Shown here: one piece after another, positions 1-17,514 of the stretch
How positions within the stretch are numbered: the stretch's first letter is position 1
Layout of the letters: the number at the start of each line of letters is the position of its first letter
IMG/VR virus record: IMGVR_UViG_3300031688_000084
Location: 1 to 29,886 of that record
Origin: a virus
Strand: one strand, 5' to 3'
DNA length: 29,886 nucleotides
Program-made: the position numbers and the translations under genes
Notes under the pieces: generated by a model
Database searches by the model: none
Told to the model about the DNA's origin: nothing
The model's input: only the letters and a program-made list of their open reading frames with translations

Positions 1-567
1 TATTTCTTAGCGTATAAGGCAGTACAAATAGCCCGTAAGTACGACGTAGAAACAGGTGAAGAGATTGTCAGCGTTAGTTATGATGGAGATACAGGAGAGA
101 GAGTTGAGGAAGTATTGAACCAATCAATGTCCTTCAAACCTTATCACTCAGGTGCTCATGGAATGATAGTTAAAGTAGGCGAACCTATCACTATGCCAAG
201 AGAAGATTGTGACTCTGACCCTTACCAAACTTGCTCTGCAGGTTTACACGTAGGGTCTATGGATTATGTACACGATTTTGGATACCGTGACGGAGTTATC
301 TTAGAGGTACTAGTTAGTCCTCGTAATGTTGTTGCAGTCCCTGAAGACTATAATAACACTAAAATGAGATGCTGTGAATATTATCCAATCGCTATCACGA
401 ATGGTAATAACGAGAATATCTATCTAGAATCTGATTACCAAGCTATTGACCACAATAACTTAGAGTCAGATTTAGAAGATTATGAAGTCTCTAAATTAGA
501 GGTGATTAATGAAATAGAGAAAGAGCTTGCGGAACGCAGAGCTATCGCTTTAGAGATAACGGCTTAA
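1..567 (+). CDS. rIIB: rIIB-like protein, 5'-truncated by the window edge
   Basis: The frame is open from base 1 to the TAA at 565-567, so this is the C-terminal 188 residues of a longer gene. A TTG at 115 could be read as a start, but conserved sequence (YFLAYKAV...) continues upstream of it, so the true start lies outside the window. Family features seen in order: a HSG motif, a MPRED block, TCSAGLHV (229-252) and VVAVPEDY followed by TKMRCCEY (about 328-381). These match the conserved C-terminal part of T4 rIIB-type proteins (T4 rIIB is about 312 aa). In T4, rIIA and rIIB are membrane-associated and let the phage grow on lambda lysogens that carry RexAB; the biochemical role is unsettled. 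No rIIA is visible here. The C-terminal tail after about 420 is acidic and helical. The gene converges on the minus-strand virion block, which suggests a different expression class. The family call is strong; the function in this phage is unknown. Confidence 0.85.
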   Translation, partial: YFLAYKAVQIARKYDVETGEEIVSVSYDGDTGERVEEVLNQSMSFKPYHSGAHGMIVKVGEPITMPREDCDSDPYQTCSAGLHVGSMDYVHDFGYRDGVILEVLVSPRNVVAVPEDYNNTKMRCCEYYPIAITNGNNENIYLESDYQAIDHNNLESDLEDYEVSKLEVINEIEKELAERRAIALEITA

Positions 568-4661: not shown

Positions 4662-7600
4662 TTAACATTTATTAATGTGTGGTGCAGTTAATCTTACTAC
4701 TTGTGAATAATGTAAAGGTTGTCGCAAGGTAGTTAAAAATTCTGTCAACCTATCTGCATGCCCTTCCTCTTTTTTACTTAAAAGCCTATACCCCGTCTTA
4801 TTAGAATCATAGATACTGGCCAACTTAACGCTTGATACAGAGTCAGGATTAAAATTAAACTCATTTAATTTAACACCTCCCTTACCTCGATACCCTAAAG
4901 GATCTCTTGATATGTATATAGGGTTACCTGAAGTTCTATCCTCTCCTGCAAATTCATACAACATAGGAGTATCTTTCCCCTGCTTTGTTGTGAATATAGG
5001 GTTACCATTTTTATCTAAAGTCTTAGAAGAAGTTGTCAGAGACTCTCCTGATACATCATATCTAATAAACTTTTTGTAAATAAGTATAGGAGCTTTACCT
5101 TCCATTTGAGGGATACTCTTTGATATTGCCATCTTTGCTGCAGGGAATTTTAATTCCACAGCCAGTGCTCTAGGGAGAGTAAGTTTCTTACCTCCATTAG
5201 TTCCTGAGGCTTTATTATCTTCAGCGCTTCTAAACACATTCCATACCCCTGCCATATCAGAGAAATCCTCTACAAAAGCTTTGTTATCGAATTCATGTCT
5301 AAGTATCTGAGATACCATATCATTAAGGAATATACCAGATCCGTCCTCTCTTAGGGTGTTTGAAACATCTTTTACGTAGGTTGCAAAACCACTATCGATA
5401 TTCCACTGCATAGGTATCATCTTATGGAAAGACGCTAGCGAGTCTCCAAAACCTGAAGATATAAATGCCATCCTAACCATCTTACTTGCGAACTTAGTTG
5501 TCTCTTTGTTTAGATACATCTCTTCCCACTCTCTGTATGCTAAATTCATAACATCAGAAGGAACACTCTTAGTACCCCTAGCAGTAATATAACTTGGGTT
5601 CTTGAATTCCGAACCTGCATTGTGATTCAACTTACTTCCCAGCATACTTAATAATATGCTATTAGGTTTCTTTTCCTGCATCACTCTGAATTCTCTTACG
5701 AAAGCTGCATTATCAGTGGAATTAAATAACATCCCTTTAGATACTGAGTCTACATCCATACCTCTACTGAAGAATCCACTGTATACATAAGAATACATTT
5801 TGTTTGTAATCCTTGTACGTAGCTCTACATCTTGAGACCCTGTGCTCCCTGTAACCCCTAGTATGGCGTTAAGTCCATTCTCCATAAACGGAGAGTTGGA
5901 TAGGAATTCACCCTCAAAGGTATTTAATAGGAAGTCTACAGAATTCTTATACTGAGACTCTAGAGTTGTATTAGTAAATTTATTAGAGAATCCTTCGAAC
6001 ACATCACTATTGTCTGCCTCCAATTTCTTCTCTCTCATTACAGCTGCCTCTATTAAACTTTTACCTGCCCCTTTAGTGCTCACCTTAGTAGCAAGTAGTT
6101 GGGAGAATACAGGTCCAGCAACATCTTTAAGTTCTCCGAACTGGTCTAAGATATACTCCTGTAGCTCATAAAAGTCATCTGCAGAGTCATCTTTTAGTAG
6201 TCTATTTAAAATAGGTATAGTTAATTTTTCTTCTAATCTTACCTCTTCTTCTAACTCTTCCTCTTCTTCAATTTCTTCTTTTACAGGTGAGTTTATCTCT
6301 AGAACTTCAGCTACTTGTTTTTCAAACTTCTCACTGAACACAATATTAGAAGGAATTTCATTCCCTTGGTAGATAGTGAACATCTCTGCCATCTCTTCTC
6401 CTGTGTACCCGTTAAGGTTTTTGCCTGAGTAGTCATTAACTAGGTATTCTTTTTCAGGATTCTCTCTTGCAACATTATACAGCTGCTCAATACTATCTGC
6501 TATATCATCCTCAGAGATAGAGCGCATTCCTTTATTTTCTGTAACCCTTAAATCTTTAGTAGGTAACGCGTAGGACTGTCCTTGCATTCCTTCTCCTTGG
6601 CCGTATATAGCCCCGAAATTCATAGCAGCTTTGGCTGCACCTTTACCGTGCTTCCCCTCAGGATTACTCCCGAACACAAACACTTGGTTATCTTCAAGCT
6701 TAGTTACAAAGCCTGAGTATGTCTTTCTAGCTCCCTCCACCTCTGCTTTAGGGAAGAACACAGACTTGGTTCTTGCTAACGCCTCTTTGAACCCCTTCTT
6801 TCCTGGGAGAGACTCACTGCCTAAAGCGTTCATTTGATCTGAAAGCTCTCTTAGTACAGGCTGAGCTAAGAATCTATTTACCCACCTGTAATCCACACCT
6901 GCTCTAAGTAATAGGAATCCTATATTAGATGTGTTAGGGTTGAAGTTGGTGTAGTATATATAAGGATCTTTCTCAATATCCACATTGGCGTTCATATACG
7001 CAGACAGAAGCTGAGTTATAAAGTGGTGCATATTCTCTGACTGCTCTTCATGTAAGGAAGTCCTCCATAAAGGGTTTTCAGATGTACCTAAATTAAACCT
7101 ATGTCCAATCCCAATATCCGAGTTAAGGTAGAATCCTGATTGAGTAGAGTTTACTTGGTCTACAATGTTGTTAGCTACTGCAGCTACCATCTTCTGACCT
7201 ATAATAAACCTCTCTCTTAAAGACTCTTGATAGTCAGGGCTTATCATTTTAAGTCCTAACATTATATCTTTACCCTTACTGTCTGTCTCTGGGTTGTTAC
7301 TTTCTATTAATTTTCTAATCTCGTTAGCATCGTCTTTAAGGAAGTTAGCATCCGTAGGGTACATAACCTGAGCCATGTTATCCTTACTTTGTAATGCATC
7401 TTCCCATAGCTCTATTCTTCTATTCTCTAAAGACTTTTTACCCTCTTCATTAGAAGGTACTCTAACTAAGTTTCCTGTGTTTCCGTGAGCGGGCCCATCT
7501 ATTCTAAGATTAGGTAGTAATAAGAATACTTTATCAATATCAAAATCACTCCCTGTTTTAGCGGTGATGTCTTCGTACACTACAATAGTGTCTCCCATCT

Positions 7601-10600
7601 CCTCAGGTAAAATACCTACTATCTCTAACGAATCCATAGATGCTACAGACTGGTTAGGAATACGATAACCTATAACCTGTAGGGCTTTAGGGTCTATCTT
7701 AGACCTTAACTCTTCATCAGTCATATTCTCATACCCCTTTATATCTTTAACATATTTATAAGGTAAAAGTATCTGTCCAGGCAGAACTTTCTTGTTCTTC
7801 ATGTCTAGCCTAGGCGGCTTCAATCTGCTTGTTGGAACTATCCATCTAATTTTCCCTCTAACAGAGTCACTTAGGTTTCCATATCTATTTTCATCTATCC
7901 CTAAACCAAATGCAGACATCTGAGCAAATGATCCTCCTAAGGATTTATACAGTACCGCTTTAGATTTAAGTCCGTTTGTTATGATAGACTGAAATCTCTG
8001 TCTAGCTTGGAATATAGCATCTAAAGGAACTTCCCCAGACTCTAATCCTTCTACTATGTTCATGTTATCAGCCTCTAAAAACTTAGACGCTAAGGCTTGT
8101 CTGAATAAGGTCTTATCTTTTACGACTCCTGAAGGAACTCCATCAAAGTCTCTTGTAATCTCAATACCAAACTCCTCTGCGAACTCAATTAAACCTAGGT
8201 CAGAGATCTGTCTCTCTACATCATGAGCTTCTGCTAGCCATTCTTCACCAGTAAGGTCTCCATATATCCCTTCAGGATTTATGTTGGCCATAATGTTAAC
8301 CTTAGCTTGAGAACCTACAATGGTAGGTTTAAATCCTTTCGTAGGTAAATCCTGAGCTAATCCCCAACTCTCATGGCTCTCAGAAGTGAACGTTAAATCT
8401 CCCATAGAAAGATTACCCGCGTTATCATCCATCTTACCTACAGTGTTTGCTCCAGTTTTTACAGAACTTATCAATCCTATTTGAGCCCCAATCTCTTCTC
8501 CGTATTCTTTTTTGTATTCTGACTCTTTCTCTAGTAAAGTATCGTATACTGCTTGAAGAGATGTGGTATTTACTAATGCAGGCCATAAGGGCATGTAGGC
8601 AGTTTTCTCTATCCTAGGGATAACATAAAAACCTTTAGCCACCATACCTCTCACTGTACCTTTAATAGGTGTGAACATTGCGTTCTCGAAATCAGCTTGA
8701 GTACCTTTACCTTGCATTATTCTATTGAAGGCTGCATCTCGTAGGTCATTCCATTTACCAACACCTTTCTCTCTTTGCTTAAACAAAGTAGGAGAAACCC
8801 ATGTGGTTGCATCTGCTATATCTGTTTCGCCTTCCCAAAGGTCAGCTATCTCATCTCCTACAAGGTCTCTGAATCTAGGATCTTGGCTAACCATAGAAGG
8901 GGCCTCAATATCAGTTACAGTTGCATGCAGGTAGTGAGGGTTAACTTCCCACTTATCGTTTGAATCTCTATAAATTCTAAGCTTAGATACTGGAGTGGTG
9001 AAATGACTTGTTCTTTTAGGCATATCCTCCACAGACTTGTACATCGCAGGGTGGCCTACAAATAAACTTATAGACTCTCTAGTAGCAATCATAGAGTTTA
9101 GGACATAATTACCTAATACTCTACCTGCCTTATGTTGTGCTTCTATATCAGAATGGGTGTTATCTATAAGACCCTTTTCAATCCTTTTATTTATAACCAC
9201 TCCATTAACAGGAGACATAACCCCTAGCTTATCTGCTTTATTTAGGTTATGCATGTAAATTCTATTGAAGGACTCCGTAATAAGGGCCTCAACTTTAGGG
9301 TTATTTAGTACGGAGGCGTCTTTATCATTTTCGATAGTAAAAGGAAGCCCTCTAGTATCACCGTTCTGACCGTAGATACCTAACTCTGCAGCCAGACCTG
9401 TAGCCTCACCTTTCTCGTTAGCGTTATACCCAAGCTCAGGGAATACCATTGTATTAGGATTGAATACATTTCCAGTGGGAACTCCATTCTTATCGAAGAA
9501 CACTACCTTGTTATTATTATCTAACTGATAGTGATAGAATAAAATCATTCTAGTCATGTCTCCTGTAGCCTCAGCATTCTTAACATCCTCAAAGGCTTGC
9601 CTCTGAGCAACTAAATCTGCTGTTATATACTCCTTAAATACATCTAGTACAGTGGAATTCTCAAAAGAGATTTGGTCGTCTTCAAAGATTACACCCGAGT
9701 CCTCGATTGGTGGGCCTTGTATAGCGTAATCAGTGGAAGATGTCCCTCTAGCTATAGTACCATGAAGCCCTTTCATAGACCTGGTTATAGCATTCACCAT
9801 ATGATCAGGTCCTAAAAGCTCTGTGTATGCTTTACCCTGAGAGTCTGTACTTGTGTTCACCATGTGCAAGAACTGCACAAGCTTAAAGTTGTCTCTATTT
9901 AGTTTACCTTCCTTTACAGTTTCATCCCTCAGCCATCTAACCCATCTCGAGTTGGATGTATAAGGAGAAGCTTCTAGTTGTTCTAAATATGAGGTATCTC
10001 CTCTATGTAGTTTGTCAATTGTTGTGTGAAGAAAGCTGTATAATCCGTACTTCCAGTATAACTTCCCTCCAGGGCCTAACACAGTGTTGTCAACAAGGTC
10101 TTCCTTGAATACAGCCTCTGCTAAAGCTAGAGTATTGATACCTGATTCGTCTGTGATTATGGATCTCACGTCACCCTCCTCATCCTCTAAGACAGGTCTA
10201 TTGCTGTTAGAGGCTTTAGCCTTCTTAGCGCTGTCTATTAAGTTGGATACAGTGGTAGAGCTTGTAGCTTTACTACTCTGGAAGACATAATTCAATCCTG
10301 ACATCGTCATTGTGTACCCTATTGTAGGGTCTTCCTCGGTAGATGTATTCAGAATGTGGTACTTTAGAGCTGCTTTAGACATTGTAACGCCTATAGAGTC
10401 TAATAAATTTAATATTTTCCCGTCAAACTGTGTTAACGGAAGATCATTTCTGCGGGCGTATCCAATTTCCTTTACTAATTTATTGTAATTAGCTAGGGCC
10501 TCTTCAGCTGCCTCTAAATCAAGTATTTTTCTACCTGCTTTACTTACAGAAAGTAACTTTTTCTCAAAATTTACTTGCCATGAAGCTAGTATATCCTTCT

Positions 10601-11846
10601 CACTTGACTGTACGTCTGGTGATCCTATCACCGTAGAGTACTTAGATTGTTTATCTACAAATGTAGTAGAGAAATCTAGAGATGGTCTATAAAAAGCTTG
10701 AACAAATTGAGTCTTCTTGTACTCAGGAGTTGCGGGATCATTTAAAATCTTCAACAGCTCTGCGTATTCTGCGTGATAAGGTAATAGAGTTTCTAACTTC
10801 TCTAATAACGCAGGCAGTGCATCAAACTCTCCCTCTTTAGGGTGAATTCCAGCCAAGTATGACTGTAGTTGAGCATAAACTTTCGTAGCATTTACTAAAG
10901 TACTAGATTTTAATGTAGCTGATTTGGAGATCTTTACAACCGCCTTACCGTTTACATCTACCCACTCAGTCTTCCATAGGGACTGAATAAGTAATTTTAT
11001 ATTAGCAGCTGCAGAGTCTTTAGGGTTAGTAAAGTGTGCAGGTGTTATATTTAAAGCCGCCGTAGGCTCATTGTCTTCAACGGCCTGTACACCTGAAGCA
11101 GACGATACTCTCCTCACAACTAGCTCTAGTAACTTAGAGTTTTGTTTATCCAAGAAGTATTCCCCTTCACTATTCTTTACTGGCGTACCAGTTGTAGCGT
11201 CGTGATAGATTAAATCAGTGAACATTCTATCCCACATATCTTGCATTGCTGCAGGATATACAGCGCCTGCAGCTTTAACCTTCATAGGAAGATAAAACTT
11301 ACCAAACGTAACAGCCTTAGCTAACACATCAAAGTTTATGTGCTTAAGGTCTGTGAAATCTTGTATAGTGTATGTATTGTTTTTAAGGATCTCTGCGAAC
11401 AACCGTTCAGTTGCTTCTAAAATCTGAGAAGCAGACATTCCAGGGATTCTCTTCAAACCTAAAGGAATTCTTTCCGTTGCTGTAGCCTTATTAGTATCCG
11501 ATACATGCCAAAAAGACTCCTCACCGTTTACTTTAGAGTTGTAGTGTTTATTCCCAAGGAGCATTGGTTCTCCTTGTGAGTTTACATTATGCCCAGACTC
11601 ACTTTCTTCAAACCAGTCTAAGAAATCTTGAGTCTCGATTGTCTTATATAACTCATAGGCCTTTTTAGCTGCAACAACATCAACCCCCTCTTCGGTGGTT
11701 TTATTTAAGTTGTAGAGCTCTGCGTATAAAGAAGAAAACTGATCGCTATTTTGAATAGATACTTTACCATTTCTGACTGTCTTAACTCCCGCTTTAACTG
11801 AAGCGTAAGGGTTTTTAAAGTCATCCGTTACTAAACTACATCTCAT
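4662..11846 (-). CDS. Virion-packaged single-chain RNA polymerase, crAss-like (phi14:2 gp66 type)
   Basis: A 2,394-residue protein. The metal-binding motif DFDID lies at residues 1434-1438 (bases 7533-7547), in the context KTGSDFDIDKVFLLLP, as in crAss-like phage RNA polymerases with the double-psi beta-barrel fold shared with eukaryotic RNAi polymerases and multisubunit RNAP. The three Asp residues are expected to hold the catalytic magnesium. A second conserved block, about residues 915-944 (SMIATRES, then LFVGHPAMYK and a KR pair), is also typical of the family. In phi14:2 the enzyme is packaged in the virion and transcribes early genes after injection; I infer the same here. Unusual features are a phage 'A1S_2505'-like domain at about 1711-1840, an acidic linker at about 1852-1873, and an N-terminal FxxWF...GEP motif (74-94). 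The C-terminal part (about 2100-2200, MAFISSGFGDSLASFHKMIP) again resembles the family. It is slightly longer than gp66 (about 2,180 aa). The start follows an A-rich stretch without a Shine-Dalgarno site, 10 bases after the previous stop. Confidence 0.9.
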   Translation of the reverse strand: MRCSLVTDDFKNPYASVKAGVKTVRNGKVSIQNSDQFSSLYAELYNLNKTTEEGVDVVAAKKAYELYKTIETQDFLDWFEESESGHNVNSQGEPMLLGNKHYNSKVNGEESFWHVSDTNKATATERIPLGLKRIPGMSASQILEATERLFAEILKNNTYTIQDFTDLKHINFDVLAKAVTFGKFYLPMKVKAAGAVYPAAMQDMWDRMFTDLIYHDATTGTPVKNSEGEYFLDKQNSKLLELVVRRVSSASGVQAVEDNEPTAALNITPAHFTNPKDSAAANIKLLIQSLWKTEWVDVNGKAVVKISKSATLKSSTLVNATKVYAQLQSYLAGIHPKEGEFDALPALLEKLETLLPYHAEYAELLKILNDPATPEYKKTQFVQAFYRPSLDFSTTFVDKQSKYSTVIGSPDVQSSEKDILASWQVNFEKKLLSVSKAGRKILDLEAAEEALANYNKLVKEIGYARRNDLPLTQFDGKILNLLDSIGVTMSKAALKYHILNTSTEEDPTIGYTMTMSGLNYVFQSSKATSSTTVSNLIDSAKKAKASNSNRPVLEDEEGDVRSIITDESGINTLALAEAVFKEDLVDNTVLGPGGKLYWKYGLYSFLHTTIDKLHRGDTSYLEQLEASPYTSNSRWVRWLRDETVKEGKLNRDNFKLVQFLHMVNTSTDSQGKAYTELLGPDHMVNAITRSMKGLHGTIARGTSSTDYAIQGPPIEDSGVIFEDDQISFENSTVLDVFKEYITADLVAQRQAFEDVKNAEATGDMTRMILFYHYQLDNNNKVVFFDKNGVPTGNVFNPNTMVFPELGYNANEKGEATGLAAELGIYGQNGDTRGLPFTIENDKDASVLNNPKVEALITESFNRIYMHNLNKADKLGVMSPVNGVVINKRIEKGLIDNTHSDIEAQHKAGRVLGNYVLNSMIATRESISLFVGHPAMYKSVEDMPKRTSHFTTPVSKLRIYRDSNDKWEVNPHYLHATVTDIEAPSMVSQDPRFRDLVGDEIADLWEGETDIADATTWVSPTLFKQREKGVGKWNDLRDAAFNRIMQGKGTQADFENAMFTPIKGTVRGMVAKGFYVIPRIEKTAYMPLWPALVNTTSLQAVYDTLLEKESEYKKEYGEEIGAQIGLISSVKTGANTVGKMDDNAGNLSMGDLTFTSESHESWGLAQDLPTKGFKPTIVGSQAKVNIMANINPEGIYGDLTGEEWLAEAHDVERQISDLGLIEFAEEFGIEITRDFDGVPSGVVKDKTLFRQALASKFLEADNMNIVEGLESGEVPLDAIFQARQRFQSIITNGLKSKAVLYKSLGGSFAQMSAFGLGIDENRYGNLSDSVRGKIRWIVPTSRLKPPRLDMKNKKVLPGQILLPYKYVKDIKGYENMTDEELRSKIDPKALQVIGYRIPNQSVASMDSLEIVGILPEEMGDTIVVYEDITAKTGSDFDIDKVFLLLPNLRIDGPAHGNTGNLVRVPSNEEGKKSLENRRIELWEDALQSKDNMAQVMYPTDANFLKDDANEIRKLIESNNPETDSKGKDIMLGLKMISPDYQESLRERFIIGQKMVAAVANNIVDQVNSTQSGFYLNSDIGIGHRFNLGTSENPLWRTSLHEEQSENMHHFITQLLSAYMNANVDIEKDPYIYYTNFNPNTSNIGFLLLRAGVDYRWVNRFLAQPVLRELSDQMNALGSESLPGKKGFKEALARTKSVFFPKAEVEGARKTYSGFVTKLEDNQVFVFGSNPEGKHGKGAAKAAMNFGAIYGQGEGMQGQSYALPTKDLRVTENKGMRSISEDDIADSIEQLYNVARENPEKEYLVNDYSGKNLNGYTGEEMAEMFTIYQGNEIPSNIVFSEKFEKQVAEVLEINSPVKEEIEEEEELEEEVRLEEKLTIPILNRLLKDDSADDFYELQEYILDQFGELKDVAGPVFSQLLATKVSTKGAGKSLIEAAVMREKKLEADNSDVFEGFSNKFTNTTLESQYKNSVDFLLNTFEGEFLSNSPFMENGLNAILGVTGSTGSQDVELRTRITNKMYSYVYSGFFSRGMDVDSVSKGMLFNSTDNAAFVREFRVMQEKKPNSILLSMLGSKLNHNAGSEFKNPSYITARGTKSVPSDVMNLAYREWEEMYLNKETTKFASKMVRMAFISSGFGDSLASFHKMIPMQWNIDSGFATYVKDVSNTLREDGSGIFLNDMVSQILRHEFDNKAFVEDFSDMAGVWNVFRSAEDNKASGTNGGKKLTLPRALAVELKFPAAKMAISKSIPQMEGKAPILIYKKFIRYDVSGESLTTSSKTLDKNGNPIFTTKQGKDTPMLYEFAGEDRTSGNPIYISRDPLGYRGKGGVKLNEFNFNPDSVSSVKLASIYDSNKTGYRLLSKKEEGHADRLTEFLTTLRQPLHYSQVVRLTAPHINKC
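6326..6716 (-). other. A1S_2505-like phage domain inserted in the RNA polymerase, next to an acidic linker
   Basis: Polymerase residues about 1711-1840. Visible family pattern: KLEDNQVFVFGSN (VFVFG begins at residue 1722), GKHGKGAAKAA, FGAIYGQGEG, SYALPTKD, a helix with EDDIADSI, then LNGYTGEEMAEMF and a final NIVFSEKF. This is the complete order of motifs of the stand-alone proteins usually named 'A1S_2505 family phage non-structural protein', found in phages and bacterial prophages, whose activity is not established as far as I know. The block just before it (FLAQPVLREL) and the helical region after it look like polymerase sequence, so it appears to be an insertion. It is followed at about 1852-1873 by a run of Glu (bases 6226-6292), presumably a flexible linker. 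Confidence 0.75.
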
Positions 11847-11856
11847 TGTTTTTTAT

Positions 11857-14800
11857 TTAAAATATTGAACCTCCACAGGTTTTATCCTCGTTGGAAACTG
11901 ACTCATCCTCTACTAATGTAAAACCACTAAGGTTAAACTCATCTGCAGTCTCAAAGCCTTTAAGCATATTATCAACAGTAGAGTTGACATCTTCTTTATT
12001 TTCACTTTCAGTCTTCGTAGTAGCTTCTACCTCTCCACCACCAAAAAATCCAATCTCATCTAGGAAGCTTTCCGCATCCTTCATAAGAGCTGACTCAGTC
12101 TTACCCTCAGTTCCAGGAGCCTCCTCTACAGCTTTCTTTGGAGCAGCCTTTGGTTTAGCTTTAGGTTTAGCAGTCTTCTTAGGTAAAGGTTTTCTGTCCT
12201 CGCTTTCTATGGGCCCAAACTCTAGAGAAGGCTGAATAAACGAAGAACCTGTAGCTTGAAAAGCTCTAGCGTTGGTGTAGATAATACCATTATCCGCCAA
12301 CCAGTCATTATATGCGTAGTTGTTAACGCTGTTAGCTTCAGACATCTTAACGTTAAACCTTTTGTTTTCCGTTATCCATGTAACTATCTCTTCCTTACGA
12401 CTCTCTACTTCAGCAAGCGGGATAGTCATATCCCCCAAAGTTAATGTTTTTGCCTTTAAATCAAACTTAAATGCAGGAGTATTACCCTCATACGTGATTA
12501 AACTTAACATTTGAGAGTATGTACCTCTACCCTTTCTACTCCCAAAGTACTTCATGAACTCTTCAACTAGTGGGCTTTTACCTGACCAGCCTTCTAGATC
12601 CTCTTTAGCTACTTTAGAGTTTAAAGCTTTAAGCTTACCTGTAGCCTTTGCTATATAAATATCTACAATAACACTAGCCATATCCTTACTCACATTAGAT
12701 ACAAATAATCTAAGTGGGAAAGGCTTACCGTTAGCCATCTTTAAGATAGTATAAATAGCCCCGTTGGTTGCAGGACTTCCTTGGAAATCGATAAGCCCAG
12801 GGTGAGGAGTTTTAGATTCGTCCGTGTACTGAGTATTACTGTTAGCTAAAAGAACTAATTTCTCTTTTCTACCTTGAGTATACCCACCATTAACAACAAC
12901 TCTTGGATTGTTTCTCTCGAAACTACCATCCTTGTTCTTTCTAACCGTTATATGACCACCAGACATTCTAGTGATAGTGGTTGTAGGGGTTTTACCCTCT
13001 TGATAAGCCTTGTAAATAGCTCTTCTATATTCCAATAAGTCTTTAATAGCCTTATCCTGGAGAGCAGGCTTCATGAATTTATGAATATGTCCCTCTTCGT
13101 GTACATACACTACTACAGGGCCATCTTCATTAGCTACTTGGATCTCTCCTTTAATAGCTAACCTTCCTAATTCCTCATCAGTTAAATCTTCTTTGTTTTT
13201 AACCTTAGATACTAATCCTGCAGTCTTCTTTTGAGACAGCATGTAGTCTAAATCAAATTCAAAGTATATTTTCTTACCTTTCATGTTCCCCGTTTTAGGG
13301 TTTTCTAAAAAGTCAGAGGTTACTTTATCTTTACCTGCGCCGTTGAAGTAATTTCTAGTAGACTTCCAAGCTGCCTTAAGTATTGTAGATAGAAATCCAG
13401 CTGAGTTATCAACATTATCTATCTGCTCCTCAATAGATTGAGAATCATCTTGAGCGTTATCAGGGATAGGAGCTTCCTTCTCTGTGGACTTCTTAACAGG
13501 GCTCTCTGGTGCTGGAGGAACAGTTTGCTCTCCCTTAGACTTAGCTTTGTTAAGAATTGCATCTGTAGTATTCCTAGGTAATTCTACTTTATCCAACATC
13601 TCTACCTCAACCTTTTTAATAGGCTTTTTAGAGGAAGGTAATCTACTAGTTTTAGAGGCTCCTGGTTGGTAGTAAATAGGAATAGCTAACACTACTAACT
13701 CTGTAGCCAAGACACCGTGGGTGTTATTTAAAAGTATTCTATAAACAGACAACTGTTTTTGATGTTTCTCTTTGTTTGATACTCCGTACTTAGTAGACTC
13801 GTACTTAGGGATATTCTCTCCTGGGTATTTATCCACTAGCTGATCTCCCCTCATAGTCTTCATATCATAAATACGGAAGACCCCATCTTTATCATATGTA
13901 AGTAAATCTACTGTACCTGCAACTCCTAACTCATCGTTGTATAAAACAATATCATCAGAAATTACTGTCTCTCCTCTAGACTTAAAGCCAGCTTCAAGCT
14001 CTTTGAGGTGACTTTCAAATTCATAAAGTAAAGGTCCAGGAGCAAAAGTATATGCACGCATCTTTTTTAAACCTTGAGGGCTAAAGAAATCCCTAACAAA
14101 CTCATCGATAGCTGTCCCTATCTCCTGCGCGCTCTTAAGCATTGGAGATTCTTCAGGGTCAGTCTCAGTTATTGTGTGAGTTACACGTCTATATTGTTTT
14201 CCTGTTTTAGTGTTTATATAATGTGACCCATCCTCAGAAAGTTTAATAAAGTCTTGATTACCCGTAAGCTCTTTTATTATGTCATCTATCTTAGAGGGTA
14301 CACTCTTTGTTTTATTCTTAGCGTATGCGTTTACATCTTTCTTGGTTATGGTGTGATTACCATTCGCATCAAGAGGTCCGCTACCTTCTATCATAGAGAA
14401 GTCTACACCTAATTTTTTAGCCAGCTCTTGAGCTCCCTCTTCAAACGTAGGTTCCTGAGCTGTTGGCGCCTCTTCAGTGGAATTTGACTCCTGTCTTTTT
14501 AATTCCTCTGCGATTTCTTCCTCAGATTTACCGTCTTGTACAGTCTGATTAGCTTGCTCTTCTGCTTTAGCCACTGCTACTTCTGGAGCAGCCTTTGCAG
14601 CCTTGTTTAAGGTGTCTTGAGGGCTATTATATAATCCATTAACAAGCTCTCTAAAATGTCTCTTAGACTCGCCAATACGCATTGCATCTATAAATAGTTG
14701 CATACCTTTAACCTTGTCTATAGTGGTAGGGTTTTTAGACTTCTCCCACTCAGAGGCTTTCTCTTTATACATCGCTGCTGCCTTATCCCAAAACGACTCA

Positions 14801-17514
14801 CCTTCTTTAGGGTCTTGTTCTGTGGATATGCTGTCCAGATCAGTTACATTAAGAATTCCTCCTGATAAATCAGCCATCTCAGCTTTAACCTCAGCCTCTC
14901 TTTTATCCATATCCTTAGACATGAAAGAGTAATAAGTTAAAACAGATTTTAAATAAGGTAAAGCTTTAGCCAAATCCTCAGGACTTCCTTTGAACTTCTT
15001 AGCTATGTCTTCTATAATTGAATCTATACCCTCCTCTACTGAAGAGAAAGAAGATTTGAAATCTTTTACTTTAGACCTAATTGAGTCTATCTGCTTATTA
15101 ACATCTAGTCTATTAGGTAGAAGATCTTTATCAGTTTCACTTCCTTTTTCGTAACCTGCAATACCAAAGGTTTCCCCAAACTCGTCCTCAGACATTTTGG
15201 AAGCATCCTCTAATATGCTCTCTATAACATCCATCTGACCTAACTCTTGAGCTAGTTTAAGTGTATGGTATAGTTTTATGGATTCTTGGTTTTTAGATTG
15301 ATGTATATCACCTTTCTCCAAAGCGTCAAGATGAGCTCCTTCACTGGCTTCCAATCTTGCCATAGCTTCTACATGTCTATACAGCTCGCCGTCTTCCGTT
15401 AGGATGTTAAAATCCTCTACTAATTTTTTAGTGTTCTCATATTTAGCTACCCATGTTTGAGCTTCTGTAGGAGATCCTGTGAATCTTCCACCTTGCTCAC
15501 CTAGGAATCCTAACAAGAAGCCTAGAAGCATCGACTGTCTACCTTCTACTTCTGTAGGGGTTTTTGCAATCCCTCTACCCATAGAACCTGTAATACCTAC
15601 AAATCCCTCAATAAGACTTGCAACACCTTTTTTATCTGGTCTGTATTCGTAATCAAAGTAATCATGAGCACCCTTCTCTATTGCGAATTGGGCCCACTCT
15701 TCAGACATCTCAGCTAAAGGCTTCTTTAAAGCCAGTAATTTAGCTTGAGTAAATAATCTCTTTTTTGAATACTCCTTAGTACCTAGTTTTAATCCTCTAC
15801 GTTTTATTAATCCTTTAAGAATATTAGAAGAAGTACTCTTGTAGCCACCCTTAAATAGGTTTTTAAACATTAAAAGGTTAGTAGATCCTACTACAGCGAC
15901 GTTAGCTAAAAATCCTACATTAGCGTAAGACGCTGCTGCGGTTTCCACCTCTTCGTCACTCATATTCACATACCTAGGGTCTCCTGAATCTCTTAGGTTT
16001 TGTATCTGCTTGACACTTCCCCAATAAATACTATTAGATTCTATACTTGCCTCTCCTACTGCAGATATAATACCTGCACCATAAAAGTTAGCTGCTTTCG
16101 ATCTTGTAGCGGTCTTTCCTAGAATATCTACCATACGTCTAGACTTCTCCATAGACAACCCTAAACTTTGGGCCCTCCACTGGGCAGCTTTCGCTCTCCA
16201 GATAGATTTAGGGTTAACTCTGTTTAAGGTTTTAAACATTTTCTCCCCTAATTTCCACTCAGCTGCAACACCCCCTGACATAGCTGCCCCTGCTAGGAAT
16301 CCAACTCCTTGAGGTAATTGCTTTGTCCAAAAGTTTGCATTTACAGTGGTATTTTTCTGCTCTTCGGTGTCATGGTGGGGGTATTTCTCTCCCTCCCATT
16401 TAACCATTTCTTCTATAGCTGTATTGACAGGGTTAGAGTATATACCACTAAACCTACCTGTAGCTATAGCTGTTGGAATACCTACAAGTATAGAGGCTTC
16501 TGTTGCGGAAACAACCTGAGCAAAACTAGTTGCCATTGTTCCCATCCCTCTACCTAGTTTATTCCAATTACTTTGAAGCCTACCTGCAGCCTCTGTTCTG
16601 TTGTTACCTTCAAACATGGTAACTCCTTGGTCACGTTGCTCTTGTCTGAAGCCTGCCTCAGATTTATGTTCTAATATATTTGAATTCCACTCCCAATCCT
16701 TATCCTTATAATACTGAACAGCCTTACCTTTTTTACCGTAGGCCTTTATACCATCACTTTTGTAAGGGTCAAATTTAGGTTCTTTCTTATCCTCTATCGA
16801 GTAGTTAGATAAATCTGTTTTACCCTTAACCTTAGCTTCAGGCCCGTTACTTTTAGGTCTATTCATCATAGACATGTAAGGACTTCCTTGGCTTATATCC
16901 AAAGACTTAGCACCTTCCTTTAATAGCTCATTGTACACTTCAGCGTAAGAAGAGCTAAGATTGAAAGGGTTCTCTTTAAAAGAGTTTTGAACTCCGAATA
17001 TAGGGTAGTCACCTGAACTAGTAAGCTTTCCGTCTTCATACACAGATTGCTCTCCGTCTGCATTAATAAAATTAGGGCCATTTTTGGAGTTGAATTCTAA
17101 ATGAAAATGCTCTCCATCAGGATTAGTTCTTTCATCTATTAATTCTGCATTATTGTTAATTAAAAACTGACTACCAGCTTTACTTATCTTAGTACCTGCA
17201 TCATCGTCAAAGAAGAAGTTCAGAAAATCTTTACCGTCCTTATCCTTTACCCCAAAATCAATAGCATTCCCAGTTCCGTGCAAGCTAGAGGAATCCCCCC
17301 TAGAAGCACTTGTGATAGTGAAATCTGACCCCGCTTTAGAGACTAAATCCCTAAGCCCTGTTGACGCCTCCCTACCTAAAGAAGGGTCACTGACCCCTCT
17401 AAAGGTTATATTGGGTACATCTAAAGGTTCGGGTGCTCCTGCAGGTAAATTATCTGTACCTAAAGGTTGTTGGGTTGTTTTAGGAGCTACTGTTAAGTTA
17501 CTAAGATCTGCCAT
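11857..17514 (-). CDS. Multidomain ejected protein: M15 peptidase, membrane segments, PD-(D/E)XK nuclease-like domain
   Basis: A 1,885-residue protein. Residues 77-86 fit the M15 peptidase motif SxHxxGxAxD (SLHGTGNAID), and HFH at 136-138 supplies the last zinc ligand; expected ligands are H79, D86 and H138. This family cleaves peptidoglycan peptides. Hydrophobic stretches lie at about 323-351, 395-418, 528-555 and 630-675. Residues 1133-1258 fit a PD-(D/E)XK nuclease of the RecB/Cas4 sort: a GTAIDEF block, D1203 in GTVDLL, D1217 and K1219 in IYDMKT, and Q1254xxxY1258. HEEGH at 1472-1476 matches the zincin HExxH pattern but in a doubtful context. Residues about 1773-1798 are Lys/Pro/Ala-rich, and the protein ends in CGGSIF. 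Long charged linkers separate the parts. The start overlaps the previous stop (TAATG). By position and content it is probably a virion cargo protein that opens the cell wall and enters the host. The M15 call is strong, the nuclease moderate, the zincin weak. Confidence 0.75.
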   Translation of the reverse strand: MADLSNLTVAPKTTQQPLGTDNLPAGAPEPLDVPNITFRGVSDPSLGREASTGLRDLVSKAGSDFTITSASRGDSSSLHGTGNAIDFGVKDKDGKDFLNFFFDDDAGTKISKAGSQFLINNNAELIDERTNPDGEHFHLEFNSKNGPNFINADGEQSVYEDGKLTSSGDYPIFGVQNSFKENPFNLSSSYAEVYNELLKEGAKSLDISQGSPYMSMMNRPKSNGPEAKVKGKTDLSNYSIEDKKEPKFDPYKSDGIKAYGKKGKAVQYYKDKDWEWNSNILEHKSEAGFRQEQRDQGVTMFEGNNRTEAAGRLQSNWNKLGRGMGTMATSFAQVVSATEASILVGIPTAIATGRFSGIYSNPVNTAIEEMVKWEGEKYPHHDTEEQKNTTVNANFWTKQLPQGVGFLAGAAMSGGVAAEWKLGEKMFKTLNRVNPKSIWRAKAAQWRAQSLGLSMEKSRRMVDILGKTATRSKAANFYGAGIISAVGEASIESNSIYWGSVKQIQNLRDSGDPRYVNMSDEEVETAAASYANVGFLANVAVVGSTNLLMFKNLFKGGYKSTSSNILKGLIKRRGLKLGTKEYSKKRLFTQAKLLALKKPLAEMSEEWAQFAIEKGAHDYFDYEYRPDKKGVASLIEGFVGITGSMGRGIAKTPTEVEGRQSMLLGFLLGFLGEQGGRFTGSPTEAQTWVAKYENTKKLVEDFNILTEDGELYRHVEAMARLEASEGAHLDALEKGDIHQSKNQESIKLYHTLKLAQELGQMDVIESILEDASKMSEDEFGETFGIAGYEKGSETDKDLLPNRLDVNKQIDSIRSKVKDFKSSFSSVEEGIDSIIEDIAKKFKGSPEDLAKALPYLKSVLTYYSFMSKDMDKREAEVKAEMADLSGGILNVTDLDSISTEQDPKEGESFWDKAAAMYKEKASEWEKSKNPTTIDKVKGMQLFIDAMRIGESKRHFRELVNGLYNSPQDTLNKAAKAAPEVAVAKAEEQANQTVQDGKSEEEIAEELKRQESNSTEEAPTAQEPTFEEGAQELAKKLGVDFSMIEGSGPLDANGNHTITKKDVNAYAKNKTKSVPSKIDDIIKELTGNQDFIKLSEDGSHYINTKTGKQYRRVTHTITETDPEESPMLKSAQEIGTAIDEFVRDFFSPQGLKKMRAYTFAPGPLLYEFESHLKELEAGFKSRGETVISDDIVLYNDELGVAGTVDLLTYDKDGVFRIYDMKTMRGDQLVDKYPGENIPKYESTKYGVSNKEKHQKQLSVYRILLNNTHGVLATELVVLAIPIYYQPGASKTSRLPSSKKPIKKVEVEMLDKVELPRNTTDAILNKAKSKGEQTVPPAPESPVKKSTEKEAPIPDNAQDDSQSIEEQIDNVDNSAGFLSTILKAAWKSTRNYFNGAGKDKVTSDFLENPKTGNMKGKKIYFEFDLDYMLSQKKTAGLVSKVKNKEDLTDEELGRLAIKGEIQVANEDGPVVVYVHEEGHIHKFMKPALQDKAIKDLLEYRRAIYKAYQEGKTPTTTITRMSGGHITVRKNKDGSFERNNPRVVVNGGYTQGRKEKLVLLANSNTQYTDESKTPHPGLIDFQGSPATNGAIYTILKMANGKPFPLRLFVSNVSKDMASVIVDIYIAKATGKLKALNSKVAKEDLEGWSGKSPLVEEFMKYFGSRKGRGTYSQMLSLITYEGNTPAFKFDLKAKTLTLGDMTIPLAEVESRKEEIVTWITENKRFNVKMSEANSVNNYAYNDWLADNGIIYTNARAFQATGSSFIQPSLEFGPIESEDRKPLPKKTAKPKAKPKAAPKKAVEEAPGTEGKTESALMKDAESFLDEIGFFGGGEVEATTKTESENKEDVNSTVDNMLKGFETADEFNLSGFTLVEDESVSNEDKTCGGSIF

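Follow-up and report, generated by a model that had tools for sequence, protein, structure and literature searches.

A predicted macrodomain of the A1S_2505 family inserted in the virion RNA polymerase of a crAss-like phage

In the window, the whole 29,886-nucleotide stretch of viral DNA analysed here (IMG/VR record IMGVR_UViG_3300031688_000084), an open reading frame of 2394 aa was found on the minus strand at 4662..11846. It encoded a crAss-like catalytic virion RNA polymerase (vRNAP), the carrier of the insert studied here. The polymerase matched the phi14:2 gp66 structure (6vr4) with E 4.3e-95 in phmmer, over separate stretches on either side of the inserted domain, the C-terminal-side stretch being weak alone; phi14:2 g066 matched it at 1e-68 in tblastn. 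The AlphaFold2 (AF2) model of residues 1200–2394 matched 6vr4 with E 2.9e-35, and all other structures gave E ≥ 0.001. The DFDID catalytic motif lay at 7533..7547 (minus strand, residues 1434–1438). Both marks of a crAss-like vRNAP of the gp66 type, the DFDxD core and homology to 6vr4, were present. The large neighbouring protein (11857–17514, minus strand) had a weak match to a PHROG exonuclease (phrog_298, E 2.3e-8, residues 1094–1278), and may be a further case of cargo, here a nuclease, in a protein of virion transcription. A partial open reading frame at 1–567 (plus strand) matched RIIB lysis inhibitor PHROGs (E 3.6e-25).

Residues 1722–1841 of the polymerase (6324..6683, minus strand) formed an A1S_2505_Nterm / PHROG 2072 domain with a predicted macrodomain fold. 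These residues matched the whole NCBIfam profile NF049995 A1S_2505_Nterm (1–109 of 109) with E 6.6e-30 and 103.6 bits, exceeding the curated cut-off of 45 bits more than twofold, and matched PHROG 2072 with E 1.8e-30. The family core, FGSN..G.HG.GAA and G.SYA..TK, was present in the window copy. An earlier note on this DNA had claimed an A1S_2505-like domain embedded in a virion RNA polymerase and had proposed a profile search. The full-profile match, at a level well beyond chance, bore out the domain, and the 6vr4-matching flanks with the DFDID motif bore out the embedding. Lack of a profile match, or universal conservation of the region in the polymerase, had been named as grounds against this reading; the match was strong, and the region was missing from most relatives. 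The span given, 6326–6716, was sound when read in frame on the minus strand as 6327–6716; the start at 6326 was one base out of frame. The same fusion was found in an independent metagenomic contig (L007), with a domain 98% identical and a polymerase about 90% identical, so the fusion is no assembly artefact.

Insertion of the domain into a variable loop of the polymerase is well supported. In the alignment of 22 relatives, including phi14:2 gp66, the site held no more than a short and variable loop, joining the ...WVNRFIAQPxLxEL helix to the conserved segment that follows, which identifies the domain as a genuine insert. Against the profile of 20 relatives, the window polymerase had 151 additional residues at profile position 1645, where several other polymerases had unrelated inserts of 80–95 residues. 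The whole insertion relative to the domain-less polymerases covered 6231..6683 (minus strand, residues about 1722–1872), including a C-terminal linker. An acidic linker, EEIEEEEELEEEVRLEE, followed the domain at 6228..6278 (minus strand, by translation). In the AF2 model of the polymerase half, residues 1700–1888 had low pLDDT (about 30) between two well-ordered flanks; the insert was presumably left unfolded because almost no relatives carry the macrodomain at this site.

The fold of the domain was predicted separately. The AF2 model built with 69 family members had a pLDDT of 92.9 and a pTM of 0.88. The list of PDB structures matched by Foldseek consisted nearly entirely of macrodomains, with E from 8.7e-4, probability up to 1.0 and TM of about 0.55–0.64. 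It included nsP3 of CHIKV and VEEV, Thermus TTHA0132, YmdB, macroH2A, TARG1 and DarG, and also designed serine hydrolases, which are built on a macrodomain scaffold. In the viral structure library, phage members of the family ranked first, followed by alphavirus nsP polyproteins. In the record of Agrobacterium phage Milano, an independent annotator had given a family member an HHpred macro assignment of >99%, and some depositors named family proteins macro domain or ADP-ribosylglycohydrolase. Sequence comparison gave no such match. Pfam Macro (PF01661) was not among the families listed for the 69 members and had no match in the search of the window genome. In hhalign against a YmdB alignment, narrow and of one subfamily, there was no match (probability 0.1). 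Phmmer and profile searches of the PDB returned chance matches only (nucleoporin repeats and designed helical repeats), and a ymdB scan of the viral contigs found nothing. Since sequence-only tools miss Macro and YmdB, the assignment draws on the predicted structure, the motif register and the Milano HHpred note. The structural match was moderate, as the TM values indicate, which speaks against the assignment; a macrodomain fold predicted for the A1S_2505 domain is nevertheless well supported. PADLOC gave a single weak match, to an unrelated CARF.

The motifs were compared with the ligand loops of known macrodomains. The predicted ADP-ribose loop 1, FGSNPEGKHGKGAAKA, lay at 6627..6674 (minus strand) and contained N1728, H1733, G1734 and G1736; its columns were invariant or near-invariant in A1/A2. 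FGSN or FGAN was present in 83/83 copies, with Gly at N+6 and N+8. The register of FGSN..G.HG.GAA was that of the E. coli YmdB loop N25...G31.G33-V34, and the position of YmdB D35, the MacroD catalytic Asp, was Ala in the A1S_2505 family. DarG makes contact with ADP-ribose through T79 and uses K80 for catalysis (PMC5179494). T1763-K1764 of the window polymerase (6555..6560, minus strand) is a candidate equivalent of this binding and catalytic pair. TK was present in 28/32 of the embedded copies, 33/41 of the free-standing ones and 10/10 of those of mid-size. An embedded subclade (L066, L070, L072 and L175) combined GSNPLGINGGGAA in its loop 1 with a TV pair where most copies have TK, and may be a binding-only version. 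In the predicted loop 2 (6405..6425, minus strand), GKNLNGY replaced GCGLAGY; the Gly-rich loop-2 motif of the DarG/TARG1 class and the TARG1 Asp were absent. The earlier note had read the C-terminal end as GKNLNGYTGEEM instead of IGxGLAGYT and suspected divergence of this copy. The reading was right, and the divergence proved not to be peculiar to it: an LNGY-type loop was found in 65/83 aligned family members, so the altered end is a trait of the lineage. LNGY as a mark of embedded copies was rejected, as free-standing copies have it too.

The family was found in 364 phage records (tblastn, E ≤ 0.01), mostly as small free-standing proteins. The window domain belongs by full-profile match to the same family as N4 gp14-like proteins of Schitoviridae, and members also occur in Vibrio, Bacteroides and other phages. 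Whereas these proteins are usually small and free-standing, the window copy lies inside a virion RNA polymerase and has the LNGY loop 2. In LIT1, the free-standing N4 gp14-like member was encoded close to the start of the genome, upstream of the N4-type RNAP genes; in crAss-like contigs, the domain lay within giant polymerase ORFs. Embedded copies were found in about 30 crAss-like polymerases and were mapped on the polymerase profile from local matches, global hmmalign having misplaced the frurule copy. About 22 were C-terminal, 6 N-terminal and 3 internal, the internal ones being at the sites of window/L007, frurule and cr116_1. Among 80 polymerase loci fetched by the catalytic core only and ordered by how closely they resembled the polymerase of the window, 7 (L097, L111, L116, L130, L149, L164 and L175) had the domain either within the polymerase ORF itself or in a neighbouring piece; the query alignment consisted mostly of domain carriers, so that 7/80 is no rate for the whole order. 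The L111 copy was divergent, and a degenerate-looking match in L156 was left out of the count. In the contig of L009/L130, the polymerase ORF was broken into two overlapping frames by either a sequencing error or a frameshift; it was intact in L008.

The domain tree, which is based on a short domain and has many weak forks, required a minimum of 7 transitions between the embedded and the non-embedded state. A single fusion inherited vertically was rejected by this tree and by the varied positions. Between the window and L007, the domain was about 97% identical at the DNA level and the linkers on both sides 72–78%; the drop in identity around a near-identical domain suggests recent exchange of the domain module. 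The domain is under purifying selection: dN was 0.01 and dS 0.12 against L007, and 0.18 and 2.7 against L008, with dS near saturation. The resulting dN/dS of about 0.07–0.08 was similar to that of the polymerase.

Kehishuvirus polymerases were about 96–97% identical, yet the content of an N-terminal slot differed among them. The crAss001 gp50 and cr112_1 polymerases shared 97.3% identity across 2318 aa and agreed at all of the first 64 positions (64/64) of the frames compared; between these two blocks, cr112_1 had the macrodomain and crAss001 nothing. A DNA search among cultured Kehishuvirus isolates showed an empty slot in tikkala. In crAssBcn1, the slot held a cpYpsA SLOG domain (PF12694, 30.2 bits; cut-off 26.2). 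A third allele, a helical-looking domain, was found in crAssBcn4 and crAssBcn9, and more widely in crAssBcn4-12; in crAssBcn9 (L229, OQ221544) it was about 115 aa long at slot residues about 60–190 and had no significant Pfam or PHROG match. The RNA polymerase of the crAssBcn isolates has been called only slightly variable (PMC10354031). SLOG and macrodomain also occurred in tandem, with SLOG directly before the macrodomain in the L035 vRNAP (28.7 bits) and directly after it in L021 (37.2 bits). Both families handle ADP-ribose derivatives. They have been predicted to be phage counters to soluble ADP-ribose derivatives and are often fused (PMC9503650), and Thoeris effectors sense ADP-ribose-type molecules through SLOG or macro domains (PMC11204291). 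Their swap at one slot and their tandems point to a common purpose, the capture or destruction of ADP-ribose-type signals.

The polymerase is known to be packaged in the particle of phi14:2 (record note), and crAss001 gp50 was detected in virions by mass spectrometry (PMC10172136). By analogy with both, the window polymerase would be packaged and injected with the domain aboard; the delivery with the polymerase proposed in the earlier note thus stands as an argument from these relatives. The polymerase would be ejected together with the DNA or before it and would refold in the cytoplasm, as inferred from phi14:2 and crAss001, and the macrodomain would be present at time zero, before all phage gene expression. 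The earlier note had left a nucleotide, a host factor or the template as possible targets. Because the predicted fold is a macrodomain, a nucleotide is the most fitting of the three, and more precisely a derivative of ADP-ribose. The domain is proposed, with fair probability, to be a passenger macrodomain of an injected polymerase, which on entry would bind immune signals of ADP-ribose type or hydrolyse them and so serve counter-defence. ADP-ribose binding, the exact ligand and the counter-defence role are predictions. The ligands would be ADP-ribose derivatives from NAD-dependent defences of the host, candidates being TIR/Thoeris-type signals (ADPR, cADPR isomers and base-exchanged ADPR), and the defence alarm would be blunted during the first minutes. 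Two observations speak against this proposal: the Ala at the position of the MacroD catalytic Asp, and the ART-PolyVal domain (E 3.4e-13) of the cr116_1 polymerase, which is cargo that makes rather than removes ADP-ribosylation.

The main rival is a DarG/TARG1-like hydrolase that strips ADP-ribose from the incoming phage DNA or the polymerase and so counters DarT-type toxins. The Thr-Lys pair resembling DarG T79-K80, the Asn at the loop-1 position and the presence of DarG and TARG1 among the Foldseek matches agree with it, and tethering to a template-using enzyme would suit a macromolecular substrate and keep the domain beside the template. However, the position of the domain in the polymerase is variable, so there is no fixed geometry to the active site; the equivalent of TARG1 Asp125 is missing from the loop-2 motif, TV replaces TK in four embedded copies, and the swap and tandem partner SLOG acts on soluble nucleotides (PMC9503650). 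Such an eraser is considered unlikely. It is more doubtful still that the domain is a ligand sensor or structural add-on, binding NAD/ADPR or 5'-NAD RNA to adjust the polymerase and playing no anti-defence role. Macrodomains can be pure readers (PMC11204291) and loop 2 is altered to LNGY, but a minority of relatives carry the domain, at differing places, free-standing homologues exist in hundreds of phages without a crAss-like polymerase, and crAss001 is a working phage without the domain in its 97%-identical gp50.

The joining of ART-PolyVal and the macrodomain in one polypeptide in cr116_1 would also suit an antidote to a co-injected phage ADP-ribosyltransferase, guarding phage proteins from self-modification. 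Pfam detected no ART in the polymerase of the window or in five further proteins encoded there, and none was recognised in the N-terminus of the L030 polymerase; the antidote is given a very low probability. An inert passenger tolerated in flexible loops is hardly credible: the insertion sites are variable loops, and several relatives have unrelated 80–95-aa inserts at the window site, but the domain has a polymerase-like dN/dS of about 0.08, its ligand-loop residues are invariant and it was captured repeatedly.

The proposed counter-defence macrodomain was compared with known systems. Phage macrodomains and injected polyvalent proteins are already known. Phage polyvalent proteins (PMC5512222) and T4 Alt are likewise multi-domain, packaged and injected with conflict domains, but the carrier here is a DPBB-type vRNAP, and the text of Iyer 2017 (PMC5512222) on polyvalent proteins names neither macro nor SLOG domains. 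The polymerases of phi14:2 (gp66, 6vr4) and crAss001 (gp50) are the same polymerase, both without the macrodomain. The DarG/TARG1 macrodomain shares the predicted fold, the Asn and the Thr-Lys motif with the window domain, whereas loop 2 and the TARG1 catalytic Asp are not conserved and there is no sequence-level match. Alphavirus nsP3 (CHIKV 3gpg, VEEV 3gqo) shares the predicted fold and is likewise a viral macrodomain on replicase machinery. However, nsP3 is a separate cleaved protein of an RNA virus, whereas the window copy lies within a phage DNA-dependent RNA polymerase, with 11–14% identity; the likeness of arrangement is convergent. Outside the polyproteins of eukaryotic RNA viruses, such domains are typically standalone (Iyer et al. 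2022, PMC9503650). No report of a macro domain in a crAss polymerase was found in the literature searched, which covered the main text of openly accessible papers. The results assign a predicted fold, and a class of ligands that can be tested, to a functionally uncharacterised phage family present in hundreds of genomes, and point to abundant gut phages possibly countering NAD-based immunity before making any protein. The polymerases of crAss001, cr112_1 and crAssBcn form a ready natural experiment together with two phages cultured on B. cellulosilyticus WH2: frurule, which has the domain, and tikkala, which is viable with an empty slot.

Other cargo was found in related polymerases. The L030 polymerase was 96.4% identical to gp50, and its macrodomain was nested within a further unrecognised cargo domain (residues about 65–350), whose halves were near-contiguous in L024 (1023–1153) and L161 (4548–4681). 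The nesting in L030 is double by sequence, the macrodomain lying in a domain that is itself an insert of the polymerase. In L024 (5789–11845), Kinase-PolyVal (1.5e-31) and an AAA_30/PIF1-like helicase shared one polypeptide with the vRNAP and the macrodomain. Several conflict domains per polypeptide were thus recognised in cr116_1 and L024, and the macrodomain alone in the window copy. About an even chance is given to the wider reading, in which the crAss-like vRNAP would be an all-purpose carrier with cargo slots, where macrodomain, SLOG, ART, kinase and unrecognised domains are interchangeable among related, even near-identical, polymerases. Each phage would then inject, along with its first-acting enzyme, a ready-made counter-defence aimed mostly at ADP-ribose/NAD signalling. 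In cr116_1 (L005), 4784–8167 was a cargo stretch of about 1100 aa with ART-PolyVal and the macrodomain; the end of the ORF fell close to the region of the catalytic motif, which may be a point at which the polymerase is split. In L154 (10436–11659), an intein (Hint and LAGLIDADG homing endonuclease, E 7e-22) was found in the vRNAP near the catalytic core.
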